From Oceanidesulfovibrio marinus (GTDB taxonomy: Bacteria; Desulfobacterota; Desulfovibrionia; Desulfovibrionales; Desulfovibrionaceae), in NCBI RefSeq assembly GCF_013085545.1, contig NZ_CP039543.1, positions 1,674,001 to 1,738,000 of the forward strand: 64,000 nt of DNA, in the 5' to 3' direction. A model generated the notes under the pieces. That model ran no database searches, was not told the origin of the DNA, and saw only the letters and a list, made by a program, of their open reading frames with translations. How positions within the stretch are numbered: the stretch's first letter is position 1; each line of letters begins with the position of its first letter. This document shows, piece after piece, positions 40,281-43,843 of this stretch. The position numbers and the translations under genes are program-made.

Positions 40281-41678
40281 ATGCCAGAGAATCCCGCCAC
40301 TACGGAGTTCTTCAGCCACTCTTCGCCGGATGTAGCGTTCCGCCGCATCGAGAACCTGCTCAAGGCGAGCCAGTCCCTGGTGCGCATCGAGTCCATCGAG
40401 CTGTTGCTGCCCAGCCTGTTGGAGATGGCCAAGGACGTGACCAATGCCGAGGCCGCATCCATCCTGCTGTTCAATCCCGAGAGCGAAGAGCTCTGCTTCT
40501 ACCACGCCATCGATCCGGACCCGGACGCCGCTCCCATTCCATCCGACGTCTGCCACGAGTACCCCGACGCCGTGACCCTGTGCGGGGCCGGCTGCTTTGC
40601 CCGGCTCTTTCAGCATGCATCCGTGTCCAGCGCCCTGAGCTCTATCCGCCTGCGCCTGGGCGAGGGCATTGCCGGCTCCGTGGCCCGGGAACGCCGCGCC
40701 GTGCTGGTGCGCGACGCCCGCTCCGACCCGCGCTTCTCCCCCCGCGCAGACGCCGTCACCGGCTTTACTACGCGCAACCTCATCTGCGCGCCGCTCCTCT
40801 ATCAGGACGAGCTGCTCGGAGTGATCGAGGTGCTCAACGCCCTGGACCGGGAGAGCTTTGTGGAGGAGGACGTCAAAGTTCTCGAATGCTTTGCCTGCCT
40901 TGCGGCGGAGTCCTTGCAGCGGGCCGCGCTGCTCAACGCGCGTGTGGCGCAGAAGGCGCTGGAGGCCCAGCTTGAGGCCGCGGCAACGATACAGGCGTCC
41001 TTCCTGCCCAGCCTGGACGGTAGGCATGGCGGGGTCCGCGCCTGGGGCGTGACTCGGCCGGCCCGGTTCGTGGGCGGCGATCTGTATGACGTGATGCCCC
41101 TGCCGGACGGCACAGGCCTCGCTTACGTGGCGGATGTATCGGGCAAGGGGCTGCCGGCCTCGCTGATCATGGCCGCCGCCTGGGCCCAGGTTCGCGCCGA
41201 GGCCAACCGCACCCCGGAGCCCGGCCCGCTGCTGGAGCGCGTGAACAATGCTCTGGTACGAACCCTGGAGCGGCAGGCCCACTTCGTGACCATTGTTATC
41301 TGCCGTTACGGCCTGCCCGGCGGCCTGGTGCAGCTCGCCTCGGGCGGGCATCCGGCTCCGCTCCTTGCCGGACCGGACGGTGTTGCCGAGCTGGAGCGCA
41401 CAAACTCGCTGCCCCTGGGCATCGAGGAGGACACGCCCTACCCCATGACCGAGTTCGTCATCGAGCCGGGCGGCTCCCTGCTGCTCTTTTCGGATGGATT
41501 GTTCGAGGCCGAAGATACGGACGGCGCCATGCTCGGCATGCAGCGGGTTCTCAACGCGCTGGCCGGAGCAACGCCGCCGCTGGGGGAGCCGGTTCTGGAA
41601 ATATTCGAGACCTTCACCCGCGGGGCCGAAGCCGCGGACGATCTGACCATTCTGGAGCTTTCACGCGTCTCGGCCTGA
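40281..41678 (+). CDS. GAF-domain PP2C/SpoIIE-type serine phosphatase (RsbU-like)
   Basis: A 465-residue protein. Residues about 30-225 form a GAF sensor domain (GEGIAGSVARERRAVLV, LICAPLLYQDELLGVIEVLN). A short helical linker (AQLEAAATIQASFLP) leads to the phosphatase domain from about 245, with the metal-binding aspartates in FVGGDLYDVM and DVSGKGLPASL and a final DLTILEL. It should remove phosphate from an STAS-domain antagonist. Two neighbouring genes on the opposite strand encode STAS fusions, so a partner-switching pathway is likely. I start at MPENPAT behind GAGAAAGG. Confidence 0.9.
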   Translation: MPENPATTEFFSHSSPDVAFRRIENLLKASQSLVRIESIELLLPSLLEMAKDVTNAEAASILLFNPESEELCFYHAIDPDPDAAPIPSDVCHEYPDAVTLCGAGCFARLFQHASVSSALSSIRLRLGEGIAGSVARERRAVLVRDARSDPRFSPRADAVTGFTTRNLICAPLLYQDELLGVIEVLNALDRESFVEEDVKVLECFACLAAESLQRAALLNARVAQKALEAQLEAAATIQASFLPSLDGRHGGVRAWGVTRPARFVGGDLYDVMPLPDGTGLAYVADVSGKGLPASLIMAAAWAQVRAEANRTPEPGPLLERVNNALVRTLERQAHFVTIVICRYGLPGGLVQLASGGHPAPLLAGPDGVAELERTNSLPLGIEEDTPYPMTEFVIEPGGSLLLFSDGLFEAEDTDGAMLGMQRVLNALAGATPPLGEPVLEIFETFTRGAEAADDLTILELSRVSA

Positions 41679-41833
41679 TCCACACGGCGCGGCCGGTTGT
41701 GCATTGCGGAAACTCCGCCGTATGCGGAAGGCTCGCCCGAACGAAAAAGTCCAGGGTCTGCCTACTGCGAAAAAACGTCTGAAGCGAGGCGTTCCCTCTC
41801 GACGATCTCGGCGTCGTGACGCCGCAGCTTCGT

Positions 41834-43099
41834 CTACTCCCCCTTGATTCTCTCGCCCAGAAGCGGGAATCCGACCGGACACTGCGTCTCTCCGCTCAGG
41901 TCGGCGAACCCGGCCAGTGCGGCCGTCTCCTTGAGCTCATCCGGAATCGACCCGGCCACCGAGATGCACAGCCCGCGTTTCTCAGCGCTTTTGTAGGCAG
42001 CCCAGAGCACTTGCAGGAAGGTCACGTCCACGCTTTCCACCGCCGTCATGTCCACGTCGAAGTCCACGCCGGCATCCAGGGCCTTGAGAAAAAGGTCCTT
42101 GAACTCCGGAGCGCGCTCGATGGTCAGCCGACCGGAGAGCGTGATGCAGTTGAAGTTTTCCGCCTCATCAGGCTCTGTGTCCAGCGCCTCTTCGGCCGCG
42201 GCGTGGGCCAGCTCTTCTGCCTGGGCCAATGACTTGTCGAAAGCCGCTTCCATGTCGTCCAGCTCCCCCTCGTCGATGGTTACTCCGAGGCTTGTCATGG
42301 ATGCCTCGTGCTGCGCCAACGGCACCGTCAGGGCGATGCCCGGCTCCTCCAGCCTCACGGTGTGGATGTATCTGGAATCCACCTGAAACACCGCACGCAC
42401 GAGATCTTCCTCCAAGATGGTCGCGTAGAGGATGTACAAAGGTACGCGCCTGGAAATGTCTTGGTCCAGGTCGCCCACACCGGACGGGTCGGTCCGGCAG
42501 TCCAGCAACATCCCGCTCTTCTCCAGGAAACGCAGCAGATCGAGCGGGGTCTTGCCCTTCTGCATCACGTCGTGGATCAGGTCGTACTCCACCACGTACA
42601 GGAAATTCCCGGCCCGGCGCGCCTGGATCAGGTCGTGCTCGCACACCCGGAATATGGGCCGTCCATCCGGCAGCAGCACCTCCCGCGTCTCCACCAGCGC
42701 AGGCAGACGCTCGCCAGGCAGGCAGGCGCTTATCAGCCCCAGCAGCGCCTCAATCAGGGGTTCGATATCGGCGGCGTCGCTCGCCTCCACGTCGTCCAGC
42801 ATCTCGTCCAGCACGCCAAAAGCGATCAGAACCGTGTTGATGACGGTTGTGGAGGGCTCCATGTCTCGGCTGCGCAACAGGCCCAGCACGTTTTCTACTC
42901 TGTGGGCCAGGGTGCGGATGGCCCTCAACCCCAGAAAGCATGCGCCGCTCTTAATGAAGTGCGCGGTGCGGAAAATAGTGTTCAGGAGCTCCGGGTCCTG
43001 GATGCCGCTTCCATTTGCGATCTCCGGCAGCTCGGCTTCGATGTTCGCCAGCCGTTCTCTGGCCTCATCCACGAACATCTGAATCACGCCTTCTTCCAT
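41834..43099 (-). CDS. Hpt-domain protein with C-terminal STAS domain
   Basis: A 421-residue fusion. The N-terminus is a histidine phosphotransfer domain with the phospho-accepting His47 in TAHFIKSGACFLGL. The middle (about 140-310) is unassigned, mixed alpha/beta. The C-terminus (about 325-410) is a STAS domain (LSGRLTIERAPEFKDLFLKAL, here from SGRLTIERAPEF; site region VESVDVTFLQVL). It would link two-component phosphotransfer to an anti-sigma-antagonist type switch. Twelve bases separate it from the upstream HATPase-STAS gene, so the two are an operon. Confidence 0.82.
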   Translation of the reverse strand: MEEGVIQMFVDEARERLANIEAELPEIANGSGIQDPELLNTIFRTAHFIKSGACFLGLRAIRTLAHRVENVLGLLRSRDMEPSTTVINTVLIAFGVLDEMLDDVEASDAADIEPLIEALLGLISACLPGERLPALVETREVLLPDGRPIFRVCEHDLIQARRAGNFLYVVEYDLIHDVMQKGKTPLDLLRFLEKSGMLLDCRTDPSGVGDLDQDISRRVPLYILYATILEEDLVRAVFQVDSRYIHTVRLEEPGIALTVPLAQHEASMTSLGVTIDEGELDDMEAAFDKSLAQAEELAHAAAEEALDTEPDEAENFNCITLSGRLTIERAPEFKDLFLKALDAGVDFDVDMTAVESVDVTFLQVLWAAYKSAEKRGLCISVAGSIPDELKETAALAGFADLSGETQCPVGFPLLGERIKGE

Positions 43100-43111
43100 A
43101 TCATCCTCCAG

Positions 43112-43843
43112 TTACTCAGGATCCACCCGGAAATGCGTATCAAGGCGCATTGCGCCGAAGAGTGCTGTCATGTCCTGGCTGACGCGTCGAAGCCGCAATC
43201 CGCCGCCGGCCGCGGCAAGGGCGTTGTGCGCTGCAATGAAGAGACGAATGCCTGTGGAGTCCACGACGCTGACGCCAGACATGTCGATGGTGATATCGGT
43301 CACGCCCGCATGGAGAAGGTCTTGCAACTCCTGGCGCAGAACTCCCGCGCCGGACGACTCCACCCCCCTGCATGGCATGACGATGGCGGCCGCGCCGCCA
43401 GCCCAGTCGGGGCTTTGCGAGACCACGTTGGAGCCGCCGTTTGTGGCAAACCAGATGCAGTTGCCCCTTGCGTTGAAGCTGACAGCGTCGAAGTAGCCGT
43501 AAAGAATGGGCAGGCCCCGTCCGCCCATGCTCAGGGGATGGGGCACAGCTCTGCCCGCGTTGGCCCAGTCGAAGCCGGGCCCCTCGTCGGACACGGTCAC
43601 GGAGACGCCGTCCCGGCCGTACTCCAGCTCGGCGCGGATGATCTGGCCGGCGTCGAACCTCGCGCCGTGGACTACGGCGTTGGCAAGCGCCTCCCGCAGG
43701 CCCAGCACGACCACGAACCGGCAGTGCTCCAGGCCGAGGCGGTCAAGAAATCCGCACGCCTCGTTACAGGCCGCGTCGATGTTGCCGAGCTCTGCGGACA
43801 TGGCTACCCGCAGCACCGTCTGTGTAGACTCCATGGTGAACAT
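43112..43843 (-). CDS. RsbW-like HATPase fused to a STAS domain
   Basis: About 243 residues. The N-terminal half is an anti-sigma-type GHKL kinase: N box LREALANAVVHGARF, G1 SDEGPGFDW and G2 GGRGLPIL. The C-terminal half is a STAS domain with the phosphorylatable serine in VVDSTGIRLF. Kinase and its usual antagonist substrate in one chain are unusual, as they normally bind as separate partners. I start at MFTMEST (GGAG about 11 bases upstream); the frame is open 39 codons further but that part looks non-coding. Confidence 0.82.
   Translation of the reverse strand: MFTMESTQTVLRVAMSAELGNIDAACNEACGFLDRLGLEHCRFVVVLGLREALANAVVHGARFDAGQIIRAELEYGRDGVSVTVSDEGPGFDWANAGRAVPHPLSMGGRGLPILYGYFDAVSFNARGNCIWFATNGGSNVVSQSPDWAGGAAAIVMPCRGVESSGAGVLRQELQDLLHAGVTDITIDMSGVSVVDSTGIRLFIAAHNALAAAGGGLRLRRVSQDMTALFGAMRLDTHFRVDPE

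Follow-up and report, generated by a model that had tools for sequence, protein, structure and literature searches.

What role does a histidine phosphotransfer (Hpt) domain play when it is joined to a STAS domain and encoded beside a serine kinase and a candidate serine phosphatase? The question is raised by a three-gene locus in a 64,000-nucleotide stretch of Oceanidesulfovibrio marinus DNA (assembly GCF_013085545.1, contig NZ_CP039543.1, positions 1,674,001 to 1,738,000; here, the window). A preliminary description of the window had called the genes a GAF-SpoIIE phosphatase, an Hpt-STAS protein and a HATPase-STAS kinase; all three open reading frames (ORFs) are intact, and Pfam matches bear these calls out. 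On balance, the locus appears to be a partly dismantled operon that linked a partner switch with a chemotaxis-type kinase. This reading draws on parts, synteny, losses, motifs and the pattern of constraint, from which we infer each transfer step, the docking role and the output. The features, in window coordinates, are as follows, Mid being the domain between Hpt and STAS.

40281..41678, plus strand: GAF-SpoIIE (PP2C-type) gene P0003, candidate phosphatase (GAF, residues 39 to 210; SpoIIE, residues 276 to 461)
41834..43099, minus strand: Hpt-Mid-STAS gene P0001 (421 residues, His47), supported by an intact ORF and a domain scan
42782..43087, minus strand: Hpt domain of P0001 (residues 5 to 106), with HFIKS as its box, where most operonic relatives have HSIKG
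42344..42703, minus strand: Mid domain of P0001 (residues 133 to 252), common to CheA hybrids
41906..42145, minus strand: STAS domain of P0001 (residues 319 to 398), with DVTFLQ and no phosphorylatable Ser
43112..43843, minus strand: HATPase-STAS gene P0002, a GHKL-type Ser kinase fused to a STAS antagonist, with DSTG present

In the Pfam scan, P0001 matched Hpt (E value, 2e-17; His47 taken from the sequence) and STAS_2 (1e-16), P0002 matched HATPase_c_2 (1e-17) and STAS_2 (9e-14), and the SpoIIE domain of P0003 matched PF07228 (5e-43). No receiver (REC) domain was found in P0003, which carries GAF instead. The catalytic residues that such functions call for are largely in place on alignment: P0001 has His47, and the GHKL and PP2C residues are kept, but the HxxKG box of Hpt has drifted to HFIKS. 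P0003 retains GGDLYD, DVSGKG, GHPAP, DGL and DDLT, which we take to be catalytic PP2C motifs, and the P0002 HATPase retains E..NA..HG, DxGxG and GRG, conserved across 46 sequences (window included). P0002 starts at the ATG at 43843, within an open frame extending to 43960. Because P0001 and P0002 share a strand, are separated by 12 bp and each have a Shine-Dalgarno-like stretch upstream of the start, they likely form one operon.

In relatives, the operon comprises REC-SpoIIE, HATPase, STAS, Hpt-Mid-STAS and CheA. We surveyed 60 loci (56 of 63 family genomes and 4 of family f5, the window's locus being taken from the window), counting genes within ~4 kb as adjacent; some loci are clipped by contig ends, some of these loci also served to build the survey profiles, and same-genus genomes and identity pairs are not independent. 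The 7 remaining family genomes and 3 second copies were added later. REC-SpoIIE, HATPase and STAS stand next to Hpt-Mid-STAS in 44 of the 60 split loci, 26 of them complete with CheA (3 of these end at a contig end, a second Hpt gene being counted as CheA) and 18 without an adjacent CheA. Hpt-Mid-STAS is alone in 13, accompanied by STAS only in one (L051) and by CheA only in another (L279); the window is the sole locus with kinase and STAS but without REC-SpoIIE.

The kinase-STAS fusion, which had been thought unusual, is ordinary here, as an in-frame STAS is carried by 35 of the 46 HATPase proteins at these loci, that of the window among them. REC-SpoIIE, HATPase and STAS are fused in a single chain in L274, and L301 to L304 encode an Hpt-Mid-Hpt-CheA chain with an adjoining HATPase-STAS gene (4 loci; Pfam run on L301 and L302); because of these fusions, the operon parts are suggested to work together. 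The L301 to L304 CheA has two Hpt domains, kinase core and CheW; in three g13 genomes it belongs to a second copy of the system. The intact operon is best read as a CheA-to-partner-switch relay, and a link from His-Asp relay to Ser partner switch is well supported there by gene content and motifs. The phosphorelay-partner switch connection offered in the preliminary description thus fits the relatives (44/60 loci, Hpt His in 44/44) but is not supported as such in the window genome, where searches found neither the locus CheA nor its REC-SpoIIE as an orthologue, the neighbouring SpoIIE is without receiver, and the DVTFLQ motif has no Ser. The switch genes occur together in relatives, but GAF-SpoIIE adjoins the locus only in the window, G015 and G078.

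Successive stages of loss are seen at one chromosomal site. The window, its sister species G001, G015, G014 and the lone forms fall on one side of a branch (support, 100/99), G078 pairs with G015 in a second tree, and the window groups with G001 in both (96/97 and 89/76); the trees carry long-branch warnings. One or both border genes are present at each of these loci. The whole operon is found in G015, G078 and G014 (whose CheA is clipped by a contig end), G001 is without CheA, the window is without CheA and REC-SpoIIE, and 18 genomes of genera g21 and g50 have only Hpt-Mid-STAS within the stretch retrieved. A search of the window genome returned no orthologue of either missing gene. The REC-SpoIIE proteins of G001 and G015 are 55% identical; in the window genome, the closest protein spanning the two domains is a paralogue at 28%, whose own counterpart is a different G001 protein (79% identity). 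Along its length, the CheA encoded at the G015 locus is 34 to 37% identical to the three nearest CheA proteins among the five CheA-like proteins of the window genome (six matches, one protein hit twice), and each of those three is closer to another G015 CheA. The window locus looks like a half-dismantled older chemosensory partner-switch operon, its connecting parts apparently lost and its linker protein kept. The G001 Hpt-Mid-STAS gene (L040:7316-8566) has a frameshift near its start at an eight-G run, either real or a sequencing error.

The phospho-site motifs follow operon state in part. Hpt His is retained in 44/44 and Lys in 43/44 loci with an adjacent REC-SpoIIE, against 14/22 and 4/22 without one (the last six rows aligned by eye, ungapped). 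None of the 18 lone forms at the site has the Lys, and the His is replaced by Thr in 2 and by Pro in 6. The box reads HSIKG in 42 of 44 operonic copies (HAIKG and HCIAE in the others) and HFIKS in the window, where His47 and Lys50 are both present. In the six Pro forms (L295 to L300, from g21 genomes), the Asp of the STAS motif has also gone, and the two that were scanned matched no Pfam family at an E value of 0.01.

The two kinds of STAS domain differ at the phosphosite. Kinase-side copies have Ser in 50/50, of the DS[ST]G type in the window too, while among Hpt-fused copies one of the 58 scored has it (the other two of 60 produced no hit). Action of the kinase on both STAS domains, as first proposed, is unlikely, although the Thr of the window's DVT, two residues past the Asp, leaves some doubt. 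Rather than being a kinase substrate, the STAS domain of P0001 probably serves for docking or as a decoy.

Constraint was compared over pairs with Mid identity of 35 to 95% (3 of 60 rows were excluded as truncated; neither the window nor L279 was assigned to a group, and L051 and L289 were placed among the lone forms). Hpt identity exceeded STAS identity by a mean of 23.7 points in loci with CheA (322 pairs; STAS equal or higher in 7), 29.2 points in switch loci without CheA (101 pairs; none) and 2.4 points where the switch is absent (57 pairs; 28). Between the window and G001, Hpt is 49%, Mid 70% and STAS 60% identical, with ratios of nonsynonymous to synonymous substitution (dN/dS) of 0.36, 0.23 and 0.31, respectively (dS, ~1). 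Corresponding ratios were 0.11 to 0.17, 0.09 to 0.13 and 0.13 to 0.18 in four g50 pairs, 0.15, 0.09 and 0.20 in the Thr pair (L248-L282), and 0.38, 0.29 and 0.29 in L281-L057. Nine hand-picked operonic pairs gave 0.05 to 0.20 for Hpt and, in the 7 defined, 0.19 to 0.53 for STAS; Hpt of the six Pro forms gave 0.08 to 0.19 (15 pairs). Because dN/dS was low in the pairs tested, the lone proteins appear to be kept by selection though some cannot carry phosphate on that His. Tentatively, and with somewhat less confidence than in the dismantled operon itself, we suggest that Hpt-Mid-STAS has a phosphorylation-independent role, as scaffold, decoy antagonist or adaptor, and that this role persists once the phosphorelay is lost; the window would be transitional, with Hpt drifting faster than Mid and STAS.

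CheA, in the intact operon, would be the source of phosphoryl groups, which would be relayed through the Hpt-Mid(-STAS) His to the Asp of the REC-SpoIIE receiver; this phosphatase would release phosphate from the Ser on the STAS antagonist, whether that antagonist is separate or HATPase-fused, and the HATPase would phosphorylate the antagonist or, when antagonist-bound, release its target. In the window, HATPase-STAS would be the remaining kinase-antagonist pair, still able to switch via its own Ser, and Hpt-Mid-STAS would more likely bind than transfer. Dephosphorylation would come from another SpoIIE, either the adjacent GAF-SpoIIE or another of the genome's 15 SpoIIE matches.

Several points weigh against this account. 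His47 and Lys50 are retained, and transfer from another CheA of the genome is possible. CheA is missing beside 18 of 60 working-looking switches, several near a contig end, so its absence alone carries little weight. Hpt box and operon state are imperfectly coupled: L051, L279 and L289 keep HxxK without an adjacent REC-SpoIIE, and L280 has lost the Lys with REC-SpoIIE adjacent. No HATPase target was found, and no library search of the intact operons' neighbours was made. All phosphotransfer steps are proposals from sequence.

Among the alternatives, a phosphatase swap fares best, though we hold it unlikely: GAF-SpoIIE would have replaced REC-SpoIIE, so that the switch answers a GAF input and not a phosphorelay, which would extend the dismantled-operon reading. 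GAF-SpoIIE is adjacent with its PP2C motifs kept, also adjoins the locus in G015 and G078, and accompanies the only locus among the 60 that has kinase and STAS without REC-SpoIIE. However, the gene is convergent to the P0001-P0002 pair and lies 72 bp downstream of a radical-SAM-like gene, an arrangement that leaves P0003 a candidate phosphatase whose membership is unsupported. An intact REC-SpoIIE adjoins it in G015 and G078, it is absent from G001 and G014 at an E value of 1e-30, four g21 genomes carry a 43% identical homologue away from the locus, and the 15 SpoIIE matches of the window genome offer other candidate phosphatases. As an integral operon member, GAF-SpoIIE lacks support, being adjacent in only 3 genomes and convergent.

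Less probable still is a relay in trans, close to the view of the preliminary description, in which a distant CheA phosphorylates Hpt-Mid-STAS and the output runs via the REC-SpoIIE at G000:C1:1742749 (G000, the window genome). The kept His47 and Lys50, the five CheA-like proteins and the nearby REC-SpoIIE-HATPase pair agree with it; against it, the REC-SpoIIE in question is part of another module that has a HATPase and STAS of its own, the Hpt box has drifted to HFIKS, and Hpt is less conserved between window and G001 (49%) than Mid (70%) and STAS (60%). Simple decay, with the remaining genes as remnants being lost, is improbable: two genes are gone, the Hpt box is drifting and the G001 copy is frameshifted (if this is no sequencing error), but frames and residues are intact, window-G001 dN/dS is 0.23 to 0.36 at dS of ~1, and purifying selection acts on the lone forms in other genera.

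The middle of P0001, which had been left as ~170 unassigned residues, resolves into Mid (~120 residues), a domain absent from Pfam, and a linker of ~60. A profile built from 19 relatives gave nothing convincing against Pfam (best E value, 0.02) and no PDB match by sequence (two rows, at 0.13 and 0.19, taken as chance). Identity with the known P2 domain was rejected, there being no meaningful Pfam match and no PDB sequence match; PF07194 (P2) was detected in none of 61 genomes from the order, and the control was detected in 4 of 14. Judged by eye, the conserved positions hint at a ferredoxin-like order of strands and helices. The Mid profile matched 63 of 199 family genomes (17 of 44 genera) and 42 of 395 genomes of the phylum, and 28 of 39 matches outside the family in the phylum search lay within open frames of 1,053 to 1,171 residues. 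Three of these proteins scanned with Pfam (L044, L045 and L240) are CheA hybrids of Hpt, dimerisation, HATPase, CheW and REC domains, with Mid filling the gap after Hpt.

Because the order of Hpt and Mid is common to the CheA hybrids, the first ~260 residues of P0001 are best taken to correspond to the N-terminal part of CheA, joined to STAS where the hybrids have dimerisation, ATPase and CheW domains. Of the CheA features, P0001 has Hpt (P1), and its best PDB sequence matches for Hpt are CheA P1 and a designed bundle; no dimerisation, ATPase or CheW domain was found at an E value of 1. The CheA hybrids fall on one side of a branch (support, 97/89) and the split forms on the other, as expected if the split form arose once. 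Outside the order, hybrids have an adjacent STAS gene in 13/16, SpoIIE and HATPase as well in 7/16, and CheW and CheB genes in 11/16; inside it (n = 4), STAS in 4/4 and REC-SpoIIE and HATPase as well in 1/4.

Partner switches under divergent signalling systems are reportedly the subject of a 2018 paper by Bouillet (title only), which may describe related loci. The Che1 locus of Shewanella oneidensis also encodes the partner switch CrsR/CrsA, and Che1 possibly acts through it in RpoS regulation (PMC9855816, available in part). Like the relatives' operon, it joins a che locus to a partner switch, and it may serve as a precedent for a CheA-to-partner-switch relay; as described in the available part, it has no Hpt-Mid-STAS protein (PMC9855816), and phosphatase, kinase and antagonist in the relatives' operon are mostly separate genes or kinase-STAS fusions. 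HptB-HsbR-HsbA of Pseudomonas aeruginosa shares with that operon an Hpt donor, a REC-PP2C phosphatase, a kinase/anti-sigma domain and a STAS antagonist, but in the parts available HptB is fed by hybrid kinases and not CheA (PMC6482189, PMC8256260). The window's Hpt also differs from HptB in carrying Mid and STAS. The window has the GHKL Ser kinase and DS[ST]G-bearing STAS of the HptB-HsbR-HsbA/CrsR-CrsA type; its Hpt, with His47 and Lys but HFIKS in place of HSIKG, might still act as a phosphate donor. It has no REC-PP2C, found in 44/60 relatives' loci, and is not assigned to that type; the relatives' intact operon probably works like it. Like Bacillus RsbU/RsbV/RsbW (PMC8256260, available in part), the window has a PP2C without receiver, a GHKL Ser kinase and a STAS antagonist; unlike it, kinase and antagonist are fused, and P0002 scores far below the NCBIfam cut-offs (21.7 of 135 bits for spIIAB, 15.4 of 145 for RsbW). 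The earlier observation that no sigma factor lies next to the genes agrees with ours: none was seen among nearby ORFs.

A literature text search, mostly without subscription papers, found no description of an Hpt-STAS protein or Hpt-Mid-STAS operon; the Hpt-Mid-STAS protein may be new, as may its survival on its own with the phospho-His lost. The surprise lies in the lone descendants, which are catalytically dead. If the reading is true, chemosensory control of Ser partner switching, proposed for Shewanella, extends to an operon in several families of another phylum, and Mid is marked out as an unnamed CheA-associated domain. The site would be a natural experiment in which successive loss stages of one locus reveal relay-dependent domains, and its end-point protein, with neither phospho-His nor phospho-Ser, would test whether a pure binding role survives lost chemistry.

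The locus is flanked by the radical-SAM-like gene on one side and an M16-peptidase-like gene on the other, names presumed from motifs. A single-sequence AlphaFold model of P0001 (mean predicted local distance difference test score, 41) was not used, and a search of the genome contigs for related loci returned one distant Hpt match only. The window genome is rich in parallel parts (15 SpoIIE, 15 STAS_2, 21 HATPase_c_2 and 19 Hpt matches at E values of ≤0.001), which raises the question of insulation between pathways. The separate REC-SpoIIE/HATPase/STAS module (L162; G000:C1:1742749-1744635) lies ~4.7 kb past the window end; its REC-SpoIIE is 79% identical to one G001 protein, and its REC-SpoIIE-HATPase pair with a STAS match could engage in cross-talk with the window switch.

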